A DNA stretch of 64,000 bases from assembly GCA_034190085.1 (NCBI GenBank), contig JAXHTS010000068.1, positions 1 through 64,000 on the forward strand. The letters run 5' to 3'. The translations under genes were made by a program, and so were the position numbers. The notes under the pieces were generated by a model, which was given only the letters and a program-made list of their open reading frames with translations, was not told where the DNA came from and did no database searches. Positions 40,163-50,505 of the stretch are shown one piece after another (the stretch's first letter is position 1; each line of letters starts with the position of its first letter). Source of the DNA: Spirochaetota bacterium (GTDB taxonomy: Bacteria; Spirochaetota; UBA4802; JAFGDQ01).

Positions 40163-41182
40163 ATGAATTGGCTTCGACAAATATTACTATTCATGCGAAG
40201 GGAGAAGCTGCATAGGTTAGCTGTGTATATTATCCTAATTATTACAGCTAGTACCCTAATTTTACCCCTATTTGAATCTGATGTTTCCTTGACAAATGCG
40301 CTCTGGTGGAGCATCGTTACGTTGACTACTGTTGGTTACGGGGATATCGCGCCTGCGACACTGGGTGGAAGAATTATTGGAATATTTATTATGTTCTTCG
40401 GTATTGGCATACTTGGAATGTTTACTGCTACCGTTGCCAGTATTTTTATTGAGAGAAAACAGAAAGAAGAGAGGGGTATGAATTCGTATAAATTCGAAAA
40501 TCATATTATTATTTGTGAATGGAATCATAGGGCGAGTGATATTTTATTAGAACTGCGTAAGGCCTACCGGATTGGGAATGCGCCTATAGTATTGATTGAT
40601 GATATACAGATGAAACCCGTTGATGATGAGAACCTTTTCTTTATTCAGGGGGATGTGAGTGATAATAACTTAAGAAGAGCAAATCTTGAAAAAGCAAGCA
40701 CAGTTATTATTTTGGGGGATGATAAGCTGGACGCAAGCGCAAGGGATGCCAGGGTAGTGCTTACGACCCTCACGGTTGAGAGTATAAATCCAAATGCATA
40801 CACTATTGTTGAGCTTGTGGATATTATAAATGTGCCGCACTGTGAGCGCGCAAATGCCAATGAAATAATTGTAGGGAGCGATTTTAGCAGCAAGCTCATA
40901 TCCCGAGCCGCTGTGGATCATGGAATTTCAAAGGTATTATCTGAGTTGTTAACTTCTCGAATGGGCAATGATCTCTTTAAAATACCTGTCCCAAAATCTC
41001 TGGAGGGACTTACTTTTATTGATGTCTTTACTGAGATGAAGCGCGTTAATAATAGCATTGTTTTAGGAATACAGAAGGGAAGCGATGGCATTGTTAAATC
41101 GAATCCGCCTGTGGACTTTCTAGTTGAAAGTGGGGATTCCTTGATATTGATCAAGGAGGGTAAACCCTCTTCTCAATTATAA
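40163..41182 (+). CDS. Two-TM potassium channel with RCK/TrkA-N and TrkA-C domains
   Basis: The 339-residue ligand-gated channel has TM1 (VYIILIITASTLILP), the pore with the selectivity filter TVGYGD, TM2 (GIFIMFFGIGILGMF), then a cytoplasmic RCK (Rossmann) domain and a TrkA-C domain ending near residue 335. The Rossmann loop reads IICEWNHRASDIL, lacking the usual GxGxxG, so the nucleotide is probably not classic NAD. Potassium or other cations would move out of or into the cytoplasm on a signal. It begins 13 bases after the aminopropyltransferase stop and lacks a Shine-Dalgarno sequence, consistent with coupling. Polyamines are known blockers of K channels, a suggestive but unproven link. 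Confidence 0.9.
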   Translation: MNWLRQILLFMRREKLHRLAVYIILIITASTLILPLFESDVSLTNALWWSIVTLTTVGYGDIAPATLGGRIIGIFIMFFGIGILGMFTATVASIFIERKQKEERGMNSYKFENHIIICEWNHRASDILLELRKAYRIGNAPIVLIDDIQMKPVDDENLFFIQGDVSDNNLRRANLEKASTVIILGDDKLDASARDARVVLTTLTVESINPNAYTIVELVDIINVPHCERANANEIIVGSDFSSKLISRAAVDHGISKVLSELLTSRMGNDLFKIPVPKSLEGLTFIDVFTEMKRVNNSIVLGIQKGSDGIVKSNPPVDFLVESGDSLILIKEGKPSSQL

Positions 41183-41359
41183 AAATGAGGAAAATTATTG
41201 GCTTCCAGTGCCAGTTCCCACGTGGGTAGTTATCAATTTTACTCCCTTTGAAAAATCAATCTGAGATATTATGAAGAAGTTGACAAAAGAGATTAACTAT
41301 GCTTACCTTCCTGAACAGAGACTATAAGATTAGGAAATAAGCATGAGGAGGAATAAATT

Positions 41360-41755
41360 ATGTCCGAGAATCTTAATAAGGTTAAGAATTATCTTCTCGA
41401 TTTGGAATTAAAAATAATCGATGAGAATGAACCTGAAGAATTGGTGGTAGTTGAGGATGAAGAGAATGGAATAAAAAATCTGGTTATTGACTGTGAATCA
41501 CCAATTGTTATACTTGAGCAATTGATCATGGAGGTTCCAAAGAATACGGAGGAATTTTTCAAGCGGTTATTGCAGCTAAATCGAACCCTGGTTCATGGGG
41601 CCTTTGTCCTTGATCAAGAATGTAGATATGTATTCTTCAGGGATACGCTTCAACTGGAAAATCTGGATCTTAATGAGCTTGAGGGATCTATAGGGGCTTT
41701 AACTCTTGCATTGGCAGAGAATGGAGCTGAATTATTAGAATATTCAAAAAGGTAA
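41360..41755 (+). CDS. Small acidic YbjN/CesT-like protein (PspA-operon member)
   Basis: The 131-residue acidic protein looks like the small two-layer fold of YbjN and type III chaperones: EELVVVEDEENGIKNLVIDCE (start), a helix ending at MEVP, then LNRTLVHGAFVLDQECRYVFFRDTLQLENLDLNELE and the closing helix EGSIGALTLALAENGAELLE (landmarks split across strands). Position beside pspA mirrors YjfI (DUF2170) next to YjfJ in E. coli, so a regulatory or chaperone role toward PspA is likely. AGGAGG is 8 bases before the ATG. It is separated from the channel gene by 177 bases and from pspA by 19. Confidence 0.65.
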   Translation: MSENLNKVKNYLLDLELKIIDENEPEELVVVEDEENGIKNLVIDCESPIVILEQLIMEVPKNTEEFFKRLLQLNRTLVHGAFVLDQECRYVFFRDTLQLENLDLNELEGSIGALTLALAENGAELLEYSKR

Positions 41756-41774
41756 TATATTTAAGGAGGCAAGA

Positions 41775-42485
41775 ATGGCAGGTATATTTCGAAGAATGTT
41801 TAAGGTGGGAGAAGCGGAAGCGCATGCTGTTATTGATAAATTGGAGGATCCGATAAAGATGACTGAGCAAGGAATTCGTGATCTTAAGAAGGATTTGCAG
41901 TCAGCAATGAAAAGCCTGGCTGAGGTTAAAGCTACTGCAATTCGACTGAAAAAGGATGGCGAGGATCAGAAGAAGCTGGCTTCAGATTATGAAAGGAAGG
42001 CAATGTTACTTCTTCAAAAAATGCAGAATGGAGAATTGGATCAGAATGAGGCTGAAAGATTGGCCACAGAAGCCCTTTCCAAGAAGGATGAGGCATTGAC
42101 AAATTCCGAAAGACTTCTAACAGAACATAAGCAAATACAGCAGACAGCGGACCAATTACAGGTGAAGGTTGGAAAATTAAAGCAATCCATAACCGGATAC
42201 GAGAATAATCTGGTTACTCTAAAGGCACGAGCGCGTACTGCGTCCTCAATGCGTAAGATAAATCAACAGATGTCTAAGGTGGATTCATCTGGCACGATTG
42301 TTATGTTGGAAAAGATGAAGAATAAAGTAGAGGAAGAGGAATCGCTAGCCGAGGCCTATAAGGATATTGCTGATGCAAGTCTTGGTATTGACGAGGAGAT
42401 CAATAAGGCGATAGAAACATCTTCTTCTGCAAAGGCTACCCATTCTCTGTCAGAATTAAAAAAGAAAATGGGAATAGAAGGGTAG
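41775..42485 (+). CDS. pspA: PspA/IM30-family membrane-stress protein
   Basis: The 236-residue protein is long alpha-helical coiled coil with the PspA start MAGIFRRMFKVGEAEAHAVIDKLEDPIKMTEQGIRDL (first 37 residues, shown as a landmark only). It belongs to the ESCRT-III/IM30 family, forming rings and rods that bind stressed inner membranes and reduce proton leakage. The IM30 amphipathic N-terminal helix is short but visible (GIFRRMFKVG). AAGGAGG is 6 bases upstream. No pspBC or pspF is present; the partners here are DUF4178, DUF350, the aminopropyltransferase and the channel. Confidence 0.93.
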   Translation: MAGIFRRMFKVGEAEAHAVIDKLEDPIKMTEQGIRDLKKDLQSAMKSLAEVKATAIRLKKDGEDQKKLASDYERKAMLLLQKMQNGELDQNEAERLATEALSKKDEALTNSERLLTEHKQIQQTADQLQVKVGKLKQSITGYENNLVTLKARARTASSMRKINQQMSKVDSSGTIVMLEKMKNKVEEEESLAEAYKDIADASLGIDEEINKAIETSSSAKATHSLSELKKKMGIEG

Positions 42486-43516: not shown

Positions 43517-44743
43517 ATGGCAAAAATTAGTGAGTTCAAGGGATTAAGACCTAGAAAAGATTCAGCGCATTTAATAGCTGAGCTTCCATATGATGTTGTT
43601 GATTCAAAGGAGGCCAGAGCCATTGCTCAAAAGAATGAGTTCAGTTTCTATCATGTTTTGAAACCTGAGGTCGGTTTAAATGAAGATATTAATATTTATG
43701 ACGACATTGTATATGAGACGGGCAGAAAGAGATTAAGGAGGTTTATTGATGAGGGTATATTTAGATCAGATGATACTCCAAGGCTATACCTCTATTCCAT
43801 GATAGATGAAGGGAGGATTCAAACCGGTCTTGTAGCCTGTGTCCATATAAGTGATTATATAAATAATGTGATAAAGAAGCATGAATTAACAATAGAAGAG
43901 AAAGAAAGGGACAGGATGAGGCATATTGATAACCTAAATGCTAATACCGGGCTGGTTTTCCTTTTCTATAGGGAGGATGATAAACTAAAGGGATTATTTG
44001 AGAGAGCCATTCAGGCATCTCCTGAGTATGATTTCACAACGAATGATGGGATAAGACACATTTTTCGAATAATATCCGATGAAAAATTGATATCTGCCTT
44101 TAAAGAATGCTTTAAAGATAAAGCTCTATTTATAGCTGATGGCCATCATCGAGCGGCATCAGCTGTAGGTGTGGGATTGAAGAGGAAGGAAGAGAACCCT
44201 AATCATATAGGAGATGAAGGATATAATTGGTTCCTATCTGTCATTTTCCCTCATGACCAGTTAAAAATAATGGCATATAATAGGGTTGTGAGAGATTTAA
44301 ATGGCTATTCAATAACAGCTTTTCTGAATATATTAAGGGAGAGATTTGATGTAACCAAATTAGATGAACATATTCTTGAGTGTAGGCATAGGTTTTGCAT
44401 GTACCTCGATGGGGACTGGTATAAACTAATTTCTGATAATAAAGACTTTGAGAATAGTATCGAAAGTACTGATACAAAAATTTTACATGATACAATCCTT
44501 GACCCAATTTTAGGGATAAAAAAGCCAAGGGAAGATAAGAGATTAGATTTTGTTGGTGGTATAAAAGGAGTTAATGAACTTCAAAGACTTGTTGATTGTG
44601 GTGAATATCAAGTGGCCTTCTCTCTATATCCAATCTCGATAGAAGAGATAATAAGGATTTCTGAAATGGGCGGGGTATTGCCCCCTAAATCTACATGGTT
44701 TGAGCCAAAGCTTAGAAGCGGTTTGGTAATTCATCTATTATAG
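43517..44743 (+). CDS. DUF1015 family protein (possible free-serine kinase relative)
   Basis: The 408-residue cytoplasmic protein is full length for DUF1015. Landmarks are FKGLRPRKDSAHLIAELPYDVV near the start (a PYDVV signature), LFIADGHHRAAS around residue 212 (the family's GHHR motif), PHDQLKIMAYNRVVRDL, and VGGIKG near the C-terminus. Some archaeal or bacterial members are reported as ATP-dependent free-serine kinases; I consider that a plausible but unverified role here. TTGAGGTAGT precedes the ATG. It is monocistronic, with the tRNA-Ala gene on the other strand further on. Confidence 0.8.
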   Translation: MAKISEFKGLRPRKDSAHLIAELPYDVVDSKEARAIAQKNEFSFYHVLKPEVGLNEDINIYDDIVYETGRKRLRRFIDEGIFRSDDTPRLYLYSMIDEGRIQTGLVACVHISDYINNVIKKHELTIEEKERDRMRHIDNLNANTGLVFLFYREDDKLKGLFERAIQASPEYDFTTNDGIRHIFRIISDEKLISAFKECFKDKALFIADGHHRAASAVGVGLKRKEENPNHIGDEGYNWFLSVIFPHDQLKIMAYNRVVRDLNGYSITAFLNILRERFDVTKLDEHILECRHRFCMYLDGDWYKLISDNKDFENSIESTDTKILHDTILDPILGIKKPREDKRLDFVGGIKGVNELQRLVDCGEYQVAFSLYPISIEEIIRISEMGGVLPPKSTWFEPKLRSGLVIHLL

Positions 44744-45302: not shown

Positions 45303-45632
45303 ATGATTGATGAAATGAATGAAAAAATAAGAAAATTAGAAATGGAAAACAAGGCATTGAGAGAAGAATTGGAACACTATAGAAAGATGGTTAGTGGATA
45401 TGAGAATGTACTTAAACTGAATGAGAGAGAACTCAAGAATGCAGAAGATATAATCAAGATGTTTGAAAATGTAATCGAATTTGCTGGAAAGGAACGGAAA
45501 TCAACAATGGAAATATCCGAGGCTCGTGAGAATGTTTCACAACTTAGTAGGATGGAATTGATGAGTGCTCTTGAAAAGATCAAGGAGCTAGAGGTTAGGA
45601 GTAGAAATAATAACCAAGAATCCAATCATTGA
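45303..45632 (+). CDS. Small coiled-coil protein
   Basis: The 109-residue protein is almost entirely heptad coiled coil from its start (NEKIRKLEMENKALREELEHYRKM) to about residue 90, with Ile/Leu in a and d positions and charged residues elsewhere. There is no signal peptide, TM segment or catalytic motif, and the family is not recognised. It starts the co-directional cluster with the TPR gene 39 bases later, so a scaffold or partner role for that protein is possible. AAGGGG lies about 9 bases upstream of the ATG. Confidence 0.55.
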   Translation: MIDEMNEKIRKLEMENKALREELEHYRKMVSGYENVLKLNERELKNAEDIIKMFENVIEFAGKERKSTMEISEARENVSQLSRMELMSALEKIKELEVRSRNNNQESNH

Positions 45633-45671
45633 TTATTTAGTTGAAATAAATGTGAGCAAAAGGGGATATTG

Positions 45672-47027
45672 ATGATAACTACATATGGGATAATATTTGT
45701 TTTTGCTGTTTTATTAATTATATTCGGACTATATATTTTAAATGTTTATGTTATCCCCCGTAAAATCGACGAGATTGCGCAAATGATTGAGTCAGGGCAA
45801 ACAAAGCTTGCCATAAAAAAATTGAATGAGATGTTAGAAAAGGATGAAAGAAATTCTTATGCGCATTATCTATTGGCTGAGGCCTATATGAAGGATAAAA
45901 ATATTCAATATGCAATCCCTGAATACAGGCAGGTTTTAAAGCTTGGCAAGTATGATGATAAGTTAAAGGAAGTTAATGTCAGATCCAAATTAGCAAAAAT
46001 ATATAAAGATCGAAATGCTTTTGATGAGGCAAAAAAAGAATTTTTAATTCTTACCAAGCTCGATCCCGATAATTATGAGAATTATTTTGAACTGGGATTG
46101 ATTTTTCATAATGAAGGGAAGATCGATAAATCAATATCCTTCTTTAGGAAAAGCATTTCGCTGAATAAAGAACACGCTCAATCATATTTTTATTTAGGTC
46201 AGTGTCACTACAGAAAAGAGGGTTATCAAGATGCTAAGCAGATGTTTGTTCAGGCTATTAAGTTAGATCATGCTATTTATAAGGCTCATTATTTTTTGGG
46301 GCTCGTGCTGCGAGCCTTGGGTGATTATGAGTGGGCTATAAAAGAATTTGAAATTGCAGAAAAGGATAATGATATAAAAGTAAGGTGTTTTCTGGCAAAG
46401 GGGATGTGTTATCTGGATAGAGATCAATTCCCTAAAGCAATAATGGAGTTTGGAAGGGGATTAAAATATTCAAGAAGGGGTAGTGATACAGAATTGAATC
46501 TACTGTATTTTATGGGTAATGCTCATGAGAAGATGAGGGATCTTCATTCTGCAATCGCCTGCTGGGAAAGGATTGTGGAGGTGAAAAAGAACTTTAGAGA
46601 TGTTCAGGATAAATTACAAAAATATGCAGAATTTAGACAGGATGATCGAATAAAGGATTTTATGATAGCTGGTTTATCACAATTTGAACACAGTTGCAGG
46701 AAGATCGTTGAGTCTATGGGATATATACCCCTGGATATCAATATCGAGGATTTAGAGATTGAGGTTCTTGCTACTGAGATGGATGGGAAGTGGAGGAATA
46801 TACGAAAAACAAATAAGATAATCAAGATATTACGCAACACCGATATTGTAAGTGACAGATTCCTCAGAAAGCTATATGAGTCTATGAAGCCCAAGAATGC
46901 GACAAGGGTAATAGTAATCTCTGCGGGTGATTTTTCTCAAACGGCATTAGATTTTGCAAACACAAGGCCAATTGATCTTTTTGGGAAGAAGGAACTCGTC
47001 GATCTTCTTAAGAAGATTTATCAATAA
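45672..47027 (+). CDS. Membrane-anchored TPR protein with C-terminal degenerate Mrr-nuclease-like domain
   Basis: The 451-residue protein has one N-terminal TM helix (about residues 5-24, IIFVFAVLLIIFGLYIL) and then TPR repeats from about 30 to 320 (YAHYLLAEAYMKDKNI, FELGLIFHNEG, QSYFYLGQCHYRKEGY, KAHYFLGLVLRALGDY). The C-terminal 120 residues (about 330-451) have the fold landmarks of Mrr_cat: FEHSCRKIVESMGY, RVIVISAGDFSQTALDFA, then IDLFGKKELVDLL. The DG-D and QxK catalytic pairs of Mrr are not evident, so cleavage is doubtful. The layout (TM plus TPR) recalls LapB. AGGGGA is 6 bases before the ATG. The stop overlaps the next start by one base. Confidence 0.7.
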   Translation: MITTYGIIFVFAVLLIIFGLYILNVYVIPRKIDEIAQMIESGQTKLAIKKLNEMLEKDERNSYAHYLLAEAYMKDKNIQYAIPEYRQVLKLGKYDDKLKEVNVRSKLAKIYKDRNAFDEAKKEFLILTKLDPDNYENYFELGLIFHNEGKIDKSISFFRKSISLNKEHAQSYFYLGQCHYRKEGYQDAKQMFVQAIKLDHAIYKAHYFLGLVLRALGDYEWAIKEFEIAEKDNDIKVRCFLAKGMCYLDRDQFPKAIMEFGRGLKYSRRGSDTELNLLYFMGNAHEKMRDLHSAIACWERIVEVKKNFRDVQDKLQKYAEFRQDDRIKDFMIAGLSQFEHSCRKIVESMGYIPLDINIEDLEIEVLATEMDGKWRNIRKTNKIIKILRNTDIVSDRFLRKLYESMKPKNATRVIVISAGDFSQTALDFANTRPIDLFGKKELVDLLKKIYQ

Positions 47028-48841
47028 TGAATATTCTTCATCAAATCCTACAAGATTTTCCTCTTTTCCGTCATTGTAAAGATAGAGAAATTGAACATTT
47101 ATGCAACATTGGAAAAATTGAAATCCTTAAGAAGGGTCAAAGGCTTGATTTAAAAGGAGTGAATTCCCTTTGCTTTGTTATTGATGGCTTGCTTGAAATT
47201 GAGAAATCTGCCAAAAGGGATGTGTTTTTTTTAATTCCTGGATCCTTTTTTGGTGATATCCCCTTTTCTACGAGTAAGTACAAGGGATATGTAAAAGCTC
47301 TCAATGATTCAACACTTGCCCTATTAAATACTGAGGAGATATATAAATTTTTCCTTGTGAATTATAGGGGATTTAGAGGCTACATTAAGGCTATTGAACG
47401 AATGGGATTTCAGATAACTGAAGCTGGAATGAGCAATATTGGATGCAACAACAGGATTGTAACCGTTTATAGTCCATTTCGTGATTGTGGCAAATCCATC
47501 ATTTCGTCTTTTTTGGGTCTGTCTTTATCTAAATATGGAAAGACCATAATATTAGATAGCTCCTTCAGTGGAGTATCAATCTTTTCTATCTTTGAGAAAG
47601 CGGTTACCCTGCCATTTTCTCAAAAACTTACTCAACAGGCTTCCAGAGAACAATCTATTATTGATGAAATATTAGAAATAAGTGAGAATTTGGCCCTATT
47701 TAATATTTCCTTTGATTCAAAAGTTAAAGTGAATACAGATATCATTTCTCCAATATTATTATTACTCTCTAAGAAATATAAATATATTATTATCGATCTT
47801 TCTGATGATGATCATGACCTTCGAGACAGAATATTCGATATCACAGATATAATATTTGCCATTATAAAACGGATAAAGGACAGGGAGGAACTGTATGATT
47901 TGGTTGATTCAAAATTATTGGAGGGACAGAGAGTATATTATACCCTGAATAGATACTATGCCAAAGATGTTGGGAGTTTTGAAGGAGGCTATATATTTGA
48001 GGATATAGGGTGTAAGAAAGGAGATAATACAGTTTCTAATATAGGCAGATTAGTCTTGGACGATGTTCATCATGAGCTAATTCAACTTATTATCTCTAAG
48101 AGGAGAGGTCTGGTTCTTGAGACTAATCTGGTTGATTCTGTTTTGTTCACTGGCCTTTTCAGCGCTTTATATAAACATGAATCTAACATCGATCTTCTAT
48201 ATTCCTCATCGTGGGGATTTTTTGTTATCTCTCTATTCTTGCTTGGTTCAGATATCTCTCAGTTTAAGAAAAATGTTTTGAAATTTTTTTCCGAAGAGAG
48301 GATTAACAGTTTTTTGGATATATCTTTCCCTGATGAATATATATTTAAAAATAATAAGATAATCAGGTTCGTTAATGAAATTGCTGGGAATAATCGCCTT
48401 GAGGTTTTCAGGACTCTTCCAGTTGTAATGTTGACTGAAGAGGGAAATTATAACAAAAGGGTATTCAGCACAGGTCTGTTTAGGGAATTGTTATCAGCTT
48501 CATTTTTATTATATCCAATTTTTGAGCCCTTGAAAATTGCTGGCAGATATTACAATTCAGGATACCCTATTAAGTATGTTAAGGTTGAGGATTTATTCAG
48601 GATGGATGTTGATGAAATAATTTATGCCTCTGCCAACATATCAGATAGTCTTAAGTTTGGGGAAACCAGGATATTACCATTTTATAAGAAGTATATTGAT
48701 CATATTTATAATAGAAGGAATTCATGTAAAATTAGCCATGTGGCTGATAAAAAAATCTGTCTTGAAATGGATGAGAAGGACTATAACCTAAAAGAGATAA
48801 TCGCCAAATCTGAAGAGATCGCTTATGGATTGCTTGAGTAG
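47027..48841 (+). CDS. cNMP-binding / ParA-like P-loop / pseudo-patatin triple-domain protein
   Basis: The 604-residue protein has three domains. Residues 10-125 are a cyclic-nucleotide-binding fold (LCFVIDGLLEIE, LIPGSFFGDIPF). Residues 143-330 are a MinD/ParA-type P-loop domain (SPFRDCGKSIISSFLG, TIILD, YIIIDLSDD). Residues 355-545 match patatin/NTE phospholipase order: RGLVLE at the start, a SSSWG at the nucleophile elbow (GxSxG altered, Ser kept), and PLKIAGRYYNSGYPIKYVKV where active enzymes have xDGG (Asp lost). The glycine-rich oxyanion loop is also lost, so hydrolysis is unlikely. It starts on the A of the TPR gene's TAATG, so both are coupled. It could be a membrane-linked signalling adaptor. 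Confidence 0.7.
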   Translation: MNILHQILQDFPLFRHCKDREIEHLCNIGKIEILKKGQRLDLKGVNSLCFVIDGLLEIEKSAKRDVFFLIPGSFFGDIPFSTSKYKGYVKALNDSTLALLNTEEIYKFFLVNYRGFRGYIKAIERMGFQITEAGMSNIGCNNRIVTVYSPFRDCGKSIISSFLGLSLSKYGKTIILDSSFSGVSIFSIFEKAVTLPFSQKLTQQASREQSIIDEILEISENLALFNISFDSKVKVNTDIISPILLLLSKKYKYIIIDLSDDDHDLRDRIFDITDIIFAIIKRIKDREELYDLVDSKLLEGQRVYYTLNRYYAKDVGSFEGGYIFEDIGCKKGDNTVSNIGRLVLDDVHHELIQLIISKRRGLVLETNLVDSVLFTGLFSALYKHESNIDLLYSSSWGFFVISLFLLGSDISQFKKNVLKFFSEERINSFLDISFPDEYIFKNNKIIRFVNEIAGNNRLEVFRTLPVVMLTEEGNYNKRVFSTGLFRELLSASFLLYPIFEPLKIAGRYYNSGYPIKYVKVEDLFRMDVDEIIYASANISDSLKFGETRILPFYKKYIDHIYNRRNSCKISHVADKKICLEMDEKDYNLKEIIAKSEEIAYGLLE

Positions 48842-49287
48842 GAGTTCATGCCTTTTGTCTCTAGTTATGATCAACTTATTAAATTGTATCCTTTTACATT
48901 TATTATAATATGCTTGAATCCTTTTTAAAGACAACATTTGTCAGTCAATGCAGAATATGAAACATCATTAGATGTTTCATATTGGCAGCGTTATATGATA
49001 TAGCATTCCCCACTCATGCCTATTACAGATAGAATTTTTATGGACAAAGCTTTAAAGGTGTGTTATTATTCAATGTGTTGAAGTGATTTGATTTAAATTA
49101 CTGAAACCTGGTATTCTTGTCTACTTATCAATCCTACAATATTTATTCAATTTTTTCAGAATTTTTAAGTAATCTTTTTTTAATATGAGATTATGATTAT
49201 TATTTCAATAATAGTGTTGAATCATTGATCTTCAGGAAATCAGGAAAATATCTAATAATAGTAAATACAATAGGTACAAAACAGTTT
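48842..49287. other. Intergenic region with a 13-bp hairpin
   Basis: About 450 bases between the triple-domain gene and the double-cNMP gene. The hairpin at 48954-48983 is the only clear feature. The promoter of the next gene should be in the last 200 bases. Confidence 0.4.
48954..48983. terminator. Perfect 13-bp hairpin, no U-tract
   Basis: AATATGAAACATC (48954-48966) pairs perfectly with GATGTTTCATATT (48971-48983) over ATTA, about 110 bases after the stop of the triple-domain gene. It is followed by GGCAGC rather than T's. Confidence 0.4.
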
Positions 49288-50505
49288 ATGGAAAATGAGA
49301 TAAAAACCATACACCATTCTCCTGGAACAGTTATAATGGTAGAAAATTCTATAAACGAGGGATATTTCTATATTCTAAAGTCTGGAAGTGTTGATGTTCA
49401 ATATGATATACCTTTTAATGATAAAATCCTAAATAAATTGAATACCGGGGATACTTTTGGATTGGTTTCAGGATTAACTAATAACCCAGTACATTATACA
49501 CTAATAGCTGAAGCTGATTGTGAAGTTATCCGCATTCCAATCGAATTACTCGGGGATTATTTACAGAATAACAAGGAAATCTGTCTAAAAATAGTATCCT
49601 TATACTCGAATCAACTGAGAGCCCTAAATAATTATCTTATTACAAAGCATCCAAGTCATCAGGAAATAGAAAAACCTCATTTATTGCTAAATACTGCAGA
49701 GGGTTATAAAAAATTAAATCAATACGACATCGCTGCTCATTGTCTTCTTAAGTATATTCAATGGGCAAAGAGAAATCAACCTCAACTAAATAGCATTGCA
49801 CATGCAGAAAAATTATTGGCGGAAATTGCGCCAGATTTCAAGATGCCTGAATACAAATCAAATACTTTATTATTGCAGAAAGGGGTTGTCGTTTTTGTTG
49901 AAAATGAACCGGCTGATTATTTTTATTTCATCCAAAAGGGCGCGATTAAGATTTCTAAATTAGTCAATAATCAGGAATTTATATTATCCATTCTTCGGGA
50001 GGGTGAGATTTTTGGGGAGATGGCAGTATTAAATAAAAAAGTCAGAAATGCTTCTGCTATAGTATTTGAGAATGTTAAAATTATGCGTCTCCCTGTGGAA
50101 ACCTTCATGGATGAAGTCGGAGATAAGATACTAACGAAGATGTTTGAGACCTTTGCCAGAAGAATCTGGTATGCTCATCAGCGAGTAACCTTGCTAGAAA
50201 TGAGTAATCCTAACGCTATGCTCTATGGATATATACAAATTTTAATTTCTGATATTAATGCCAAGAATAAGCATCATGCAAGAACACAGAATGAATATAT
50301 CTTTAATTTTTCTTTAATGGATTTAAAGAGAATGATAGGGATGGAAGAGGCAAGAGATGATAGCATACATGAGTTTTTATCCGATGAGAACATTGACATC
50401 TCAAATCATTCTATTCGTATTTATGACAAAAGGAAAATAGATGATAAGGTAGCCATTTATAAAAGTAGAGAGAGGAAAAAGAAAATTATTGATATTCACA
50501 TTTAA
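49288..50505 (+). CDS. Protein with two cyclic-nucleotide-binding domains and a helical linker
   Basis: The 405-residue protein has two CAP-type effector domains, about residues 5-115 (YFYILKSGSVDV, LNTGDTFGLVSGL) and about 190-300 (FYFIQKGAIKI, LREGEIFGEMAVLN), joined by a TPR-like linker (YKKLNQYDIAAHCLLKYIQWA). The C-terminal ~100 residues could be a divergent winged helix (FNFSLMDLKRMIG), so DNA binding is possible but not clear. Similar two-domain proteins occur in Treponema. The Arg/Glu phosphate-binding signature of true cAMP sites is only partly visible. The ATG at 49288 is chosen over a TTG at 49225; neither has a good Shine-Dalgarno sequence. It is a neighbour of the triple-domain cNMP protein. 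Confidence 0.7.
   Translation: MENEIKTIHHSPGTVIMVENSINEGYFYILKSGSVDVQYDIPFNDKILNKLNTGDTFGLVSGLTNNPVHYTLIAEADCEVIRIPIELLGDYLQNNKEICLKIVSLYSNQLRALNNYLITKHPSHQEIEKPHLLLNTAEGYKKLNQYDIAAHCLLKYIQWAKRNQPQLNSIAHAEKLLAEIAPDFKMPEYKSNTLLLQKGVVVFVENEPADYFYFIQKGAIKISKLVNNQEFILSILREGEIFGEMAVLNKKVRNASAIVFENVKIMRLPVETFMDEVGDKILTKMFETFARRIWYAHQRVTLLEMSNPNAMLYGYIQILISDINAKNKHHARTQNEYIFNFSLMDLKRMIGMEEARDDSIHEFLSDENIDISNHSIRIYDKRKIDDKVAIYKSRERKKKIIDIHI

Follow-up and report, generated by a model that had tools for sequence, protein, structure and literature searches.

The neuropathy target esterase (NTE) family, also known as PNPLA6 or Swiss-cheese, and the bacterial NTE-type patatins are built from a cyclic nucleotide-binding (CNB) domain (PF00027), a P-loop-like domain (PF24179, NTE_Ploop, entered in Pfam as 'Neuropathy Target Esterase family P-loop like domain') and a patatin domain (PF01734), in that order. 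Human NTE has the catalytic dyad Ser1014/Asp1134, and the enzymes of the family use phospholipids as substrates (PMC9025805). What the CNB and P-loop-like domains do beside the hydrolase is poorly settled. Here, we describe a 604-residue chain with the same order of domains, hereafter pseudo-NTE, encoded at positions 47027-48841 of the forward strand in a 64,000-nucleotide stretch (the window; positions 1 to 64,000 of contig JAXHTS010000068.1) of a Spirochaetota bacterium (GCA_034190085.1; hereafter genome G000, an assembly of 4.27 Mb in 86 contigs). Pseudo-NTE is almost certainly a dead NTE-type protein and, judged by its residues, a degenerate descendant of the NTE/PNPLA6 family and not a functional member of it. 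The initial annotation of the window took the combination of domains to be undescribed; the layout is in fact that of NTE/PNPLA6, with a Pfam family covering the middle domain, and what is new is an old, conserved and catalytically dead branch.

At the sequence level, residues 45-109 of pseudo-NTE match the Pfam model cNMP_binding (E 8e-6) and residues 374-511 the model Patatin (E 2e-4), both under Pfam's cut-off, and residues 143-257 faintly match the NCBIfam model MinD (E 5e-3). Among 34 homologues, the cNMP model matches 28, the Patatin model 15 (best E 1.5e-8) and MinD/ParA-type models a minority (best E 6e-6); a sequence search of the PDB with the window protein returned no match. An AlphaFold2 model computed from 34 sequences (mean pLDDT 88.0, pTM 0.89) consists of three domains, all encoded on the + strand: a CNB fold (residues 1-128; 47027-47410), supported by the Pfam match, by column counts and by Foldseek matches to CNB domains; a MinD/ParA-fold domain (residues 140-357; 47444-48097), supported by the model, by homologue matches and by residue counts; and a pseudo-patatin domain (residues 357-604; 48095-48838), supported by Pfam, the model and residue counts. 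Residues 140-357 of the model align with Escherichia coli MinD (3r9j) with Z 19.5 and a root-mean-square deviation of 3.0 over 208 residues, and residues 357-604 with PlpD (5fya) with Z 20.5 and a deviation of 3.4 over 230 residues; CapE and CapV rank among the Foldseek patatin matches. Thus, the fusion of cNMP, ParA/MinD and patatin domains read in the initial annotation is borne out by Pfam and NCBIfam, by the homologues and by the predicted structure.

We then counted residues at the expected active and ligand sites in 35 full-length homologues, the window protein included. The patatin Ser-Asp dyad is complete in none of them. The Asp position is occupied by Ser in 30 (S511 in the window protein), by Ala in four and by Asn in one; the nucleophile Ser is kept in 21, among them the window protein (S395, in the elbow SSSWG at 393-397), while the remaining 14 have Gly, Ala, Cys or Phe there. 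The oxyanion GGG reads TNL at 366-368 in the window protein, and these positions vary, with GGG in 0/35; the absence of the Asp and of the oxyanion glycines had been correctly noticed from the window sequence. In the MinD fold, the P-loop Gly is present in 35/35 and its Lys (K156) in 28/35, with GKS at 155-157 in the window protein, and both the first A' Asp (D177) and the Walker B Asp (D257) are found in all 35. The ParA signature Lys is absent, and the second A' Asp position, which we take to be that of the catalytic Asp of MinD/ParA, is Ser in 34/35 (S179 in the window protein). In the phosphate-binding cassette of the CNB domain, the Glu position (77) is Glu in 7/35 and Asp in the window protein, and the Arg position (85) is Arg in 2/35 and Tyr in the window protein; the cassette is degenerate in the latter (FGDIPF...KGYVKA), while F75, G76 and P79 are invariant in the family. 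By its residues, then, pseudo-NTE appears catalytically dead, and each of the three domains is missing residues that characterise its textbook function, in a chain that is intact and has many invariant positions. Conservation of the intact chain despite the loss of these residues suggests that purifying selection maintains some property other than these activities.

The descent of pseudo-NTE from NTE-type enzymes is supported by profile comparisons and by a tree. In other Spirochaetota, enzymes with this arrangement of domains look active, carrying GGGGAR, G-x-S-x-G and DGG motifs (loci L117-L121), and some of them match PF24179, such as the NTE at locus L124 (residues 300-456, E 6e-19), where the match lies between the CNB and patatin domains. 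NTE_Ploop proteins occur in 14/296 genomes of the phylum and, within the window's order, in G010 only; at E<=1, PF24179 did not match the window protein, and it had no match in genome G000. When a profile alignment of the window's pseudo-NTE family (A1) was compared with the active NTE-like enzymes using hhalign, the two aligned co-linearly over 540 columns (probability 99.7, E 2e-26), and comparison of A1 with 14 NTE_Ploop-bearing NTEs was likewise co-linear (495 columns, E 9e-23). The matching layout and the co-linear profiles assign the architecture to the NTE/PNPLA6 family. A tree was built from 41 sequences; its end branches are long and its inner details unsure, but a branch with 100/100 support parts the active forms from the dead ones and the sister group of the latter.

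Pseudo-NTE is conserved throughout the window's order, a group of uncultured spirochaetes. In a comparison that drew mostly on metagenome-assembled genomes (MAGs), 43 of the 45 genomes from the window's family or order proved to encode an orthologue (E <= 1e-20); completeness is 66% in G022 and 69% in G023, the two in which none was found. Full-length identity is mostly 27-47% through the order and drops to 19-22% in the two most distant homologues, and some 250 further genomes from the phylum gave weak, mostly patatin-type matches only. A full-length chain conserved throughout an order is not a chance open reading frame. A decaying pseudogene was also considered and rejected, given the full-length frame kept across the order and the invariant columns in all three domains, as was an island or defence cassette, given the single copy order-wide, the fixed context and the lack of a PADLOC match.

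Directly upstream lies the gene TPR-Mrr1 (45669-47027, + strand), whose product has an N-terminal hydrophobic helix, TPR repeats and a C-terminal Mrr-type domain. The TAA of TPR-Mrr1 (47025-47027) and the ATG of pseudo-NTE (47027-47029) share one nucleotide, an overlap recorded in the initial annotation and confirmed here, and scans for promoters and terminators gave no clear boundary of a transcription unit. TPR-Mrr1 lies directly upstream and on the same strand in 39/39 readable loci, with gaps of -4 to +49 nt. The tie between the two genes claimed in the initial annotation is supported and stands against the three refutations named with it: among the homologues we found neither an active dyad (0/35) nor separated domains, and the genes adjoin at every readable locus. 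TPR-Mrr1 is far better kept than pseudo-NTE (56-68% identity), and has relatives in 207/296 genomes of the phylum at E <= 1e-40, the weaker of which may match by TPR repeats alone. Both TPR-Mrr1 and a second protein of this type, TPR-Mrr2 (see below), match Mrr_cat in Pfam, and TPR-Mrr2 also matches NA-iREase1; a PDB sequence search with the Mrr domain of TPR-Mrr1 gave no match. Read by eye, the Mrr domain of TPR-Mrr1 has E or other residues at the catalytic Asp and lacks QxK, and that of TPR-Mrr2 keeps the Asp and has VWVRRW at the QxK segment, so that both proteins look nuclease-dead. TPR-Mrr1 is a phylum-wide, scaffold-like spirochaete membrane protein for which we found no described role, and no literature on pseudo-NTE or a TPR-Mrr system in spirochaetes was found among open-licence papers.

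More diverged versions of the couple were found by position, not by similarity alone, at loci reached via TPR-Mrr. In the sister families f22, f38, f41 and f46, TPR-Mrr1 is followed immediately by a protein of 419-629 residues, which the A1 profile recognises in eleven loci (E 1e-6 to 2e-29) and fails to recognise in three (L169, L170 and L174); aligned together, the sister-family proteins match A1 at E 2e-25. The P-loop has been lost in the forms from L122, L172, L175 and L183. In MAGs that resemble Spirochaetales, the gene after TPR-Mrr1 encodes a protein of the metallophosphatase family (L115:11380-12057, L116:1486-2148).

In most of the order, the couple stands at the head of a block of seven genes, in the order TPR-Mrr1, pseudo-NTE, a small membrane protein (4TM), a STAS protein, a 750-residue protein (P750), TPR-Mrr2 and a ParB_N protein. 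All seven are present in twenty-one named loci; L102-L104 have no recognisable P750, L097 is without the last two genes, and the remaining loci are either truncated at the end of a contig or from family f1. The STAS protein is the best conserved of the small block proteins (61-99% identity to the L055 query) and keeps its SSG motif. P750 (L071:14137-16380, L135:4080-6293) belongs to no Pfam family; its AlphaFold2 model (pLDDT 89.5, pTM 0.91) shows a beta-sandwich and an (alpha/alpha)6 barrel of the glycosidase/phosphorylase type and matches several glycoside hydrolase (GH) families with Z 20-26. In f1, the family of the window, a DUF1015 gene, TPR-Mrr1 and pseudo-NTE are together in all three genomes (G000, G001 and G002), and 4TM-STAS-P750-TPR-Mrr2-ParB_N form one unit on another contig (L135, that is, G000:C82:8000-20000; L136 and L137). 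The break in the operon therefore falls elsewhere and leaves the couple of TPR-Mrr1 and pseudo-NTE intact.

A different protein takes the place of pseudo-NTE in family f34, in which some records are named Leptospirales: here TPR-Mrr1 is followed by a GAF-GAF-SpoIIE-HATPase protein of 900-1000 residues, and in loci of this type (L108-L110, L180, L186 and L187) its gene usually precedes those for STAS and/or P750. By its domains, this protein is a partner-switching regulator in the position of pseudo-NTE. SpoIIE-type proteins are encoded elsewhere in the genome in 44/44 genomes of the window's order, so that a STAS switch might rely on them in trans.

Pseudo-NTE is thus probably not an enzyme but a subunit with a signalling or structural role, and tethering to the membrane via TPR-Mrr1 is somewhat likelier than not. 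We suggest that pseudo-NTE docks on the cytosolic TPR/Mrr part of the membrane-anchored TPR-Mrr1, and that its three folds work as a binding and conformational unit, i.e., as a non-catalytic regulatory subunit. The patatin fold would perhaps offer a membrane or lipid-contact surface and the MinD fold a clamp stabilised by nucleotide, with no hydrolysis of ATP; pseudo-NTE would relay its state (lipid contact, nucleotide occupancy, or both) to either the STAS protein or P750, and the complex would control the phosphorylation or partner state of STAS, by itself or by way of the other block members. In the related families, the GAF-SpoIIE-HATPase regulator would presumably play the same role. To this mechanism, in which a dead NTE docked on TPR-Mrr1 controls the state of STAS, we assign a probability of about 0.45. 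A broader proposal is more tentative: that the block is an undescribed Spirochaetota module made largely of dead enzymes (pseudo-NTE and the two TPR pseudo-nuclease Mrr proteins), in which pseudo-NTE stands in for the SpoIIE phosphatase/kinase and provides the input of a STAS partner switch, associated with the membrane, that acts on a cytosolic protein of GH fold.

Several observations weigh against control of STAS. In the window's own genome the STAS gene is on another contig (C82), and the sister-lineage versions adjoin TPR-Mrr with no STAS or P750 right beside them, so that the link to STAS is not universal; the exchange of genes at this position may also reflect a shared scaffold rather than a shared function. 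If STAS is not the target, pseudo-NTE could chiefly be a lipid sensor, its pseudo-patatin pocket still able to bind, but not to hydrolyse, a lipid or lysophospholipid, and reporting the state of the membrane to TPR-Mrr1. Retention of the whole patatin fold, with Ser395 in the window protein among 21/35 homologues, the membrane anchor of the partner and the use of phospholipids by the related NTE enzymes (PMC9025805) fit this idea, but the oxyanion loop and the Asp have been replaced and the pocket residues differ among homologues, and we regard it as unlikely. Ser395 could also serve, with other residues, in an altered active site; as 14 homologues have Gly, Ala, Cys or Phe at position 395, the Ser is not required across the order, and a non-canonical enzyme seems highly improbable. 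A role of the middle domain as a MinD/ParA-like switch that would bind ATP, form dimers and position the complex, with the ParB_N protein, whose gene closes the block, as a possible partner, would account for the clear predicted MinD fold and for the P-loop Gly, A' Asp and Walker B Asp (each 35/35) and P-loop Lys (28/35). The loss of that Lys in 7/35 homologues and of the P-loop in the sister-lineage proteins from L122, L172, L175 and L183 nevertheless argues against any mechanism that requires ATP, including an ATP-dependent form of the one preferred here; moreover, there is no signature Lys, the catalytic Asp is Ser in 34/35, and the C-terminal membrane-targeting helix of MinD is impossible in mid-chain, which makes such a switch decidedly unlikely.

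The initial annotation proposed a cyclic-nucleotide signal adaptor. A CNB fold is indeed present, and a separate gene downstream (49225-50505) encodes two well-scoring CNB domains, but the pocket Glu and Arg are found in only 7/35 and 2/35 homologues while F75, G76 and P79 are invariant. Going by these residues, gating of pseudo-NTE by a cyclic nucleotide is unlikely, and we hold the adaptor proposal as a whole to be very doubtful. The pairing of a patatin with a restriction-type (Mrr) partner recalls antiphage defence of the kind represented by CapV/CapE in CBASS, and CapE and CapV are indeed among the structural matches and both TPR proteins carry Mrr-type domains. However, PADLOC gave no match for the window protein and weak TPR/Mrr matches only for its neighbours, no cyclase gene was seen in the neighbourhood, and the gene is a single-copy one conserved order-wide with dead catalytic sites, so that a defence function can hardly be credited. 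A non-catalytic subunit docked on TPR-Mrr1 and acting on STAS is the reading that we prefer.

A 109-residue coiled-coil protein is encoded upstream of TPR-Mrr1 (45303-45632, + strand) and in the same place in 16/40 loci of relatives, as found by BLAST, and also in sister lineages; farther upstream, the DUF1015 gene (43517-44743, + strand) is a neighbour kept in part of the order. The product of the gene at 49225-50505, whose two CNB domains match Pfam at E 2e-34, has a C-terminal extension and adjoins a Usp gene; on its sequence it is a better candidate for cyclic-nucleotide sensing than pseudo-NTE. Genes for a potassium-channel/RCK protein, a CesT_Tir_1/YbjN-like protein and PspA/IM30 lie in a row at 40163-42485, possibly an envelope-stress group.

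A lineage that keeps three folds order-wide after discarding catalysis suggests that selection can act on a function of the NTE scaffold itself, and makes pseudo-NTE a system for studying that function in the absence of the esterase; the block, in turn, ties a phylum-wide spirochaete TPR-Mrr protein to STAS-type regulation. Compared with NTE/PNPLA6, pseudo-NTE is without the catalytic dyad and the oxyanion loop in all 35 homologues, lacks a match to NTE_Ploop and is fixed beside TPR-Mrr. With the MinD/ParA (SIMIBI) ATPases it shares the fold of residues 140-357, GK[ST] in most homologues and the A' and Walker B Asp residues, but it lacks the signature Lys, has Ser for the catalytic Asp and is fused between two other domains. 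To the Mrr-type (type IV restriction) endonucleases and the inactive REase domains associated with NACHT, the TPR proteins are linked by matches to Mrr_cat (both proteins) and to NA-iREase1 (TPR-Mrr2), with the usual D...QxK residues altered as read by eye. Finally, the Rsb/SpoIIA systems switch partners by means of a STAS protein, a SpoIIE phosphatase and an RsbW-type kinase; a STAS gene stands in the block of pseudo-NTE in most of the order, and related families have a GAF-SpoIIE-HATPase gene after TPR-Mrr, usually before STAS, whereas in the order of the window it is pseudo-NTE that fills this slot, and the SpoIIE-type phosphatase and RsbW-type kinase are not in the operon.

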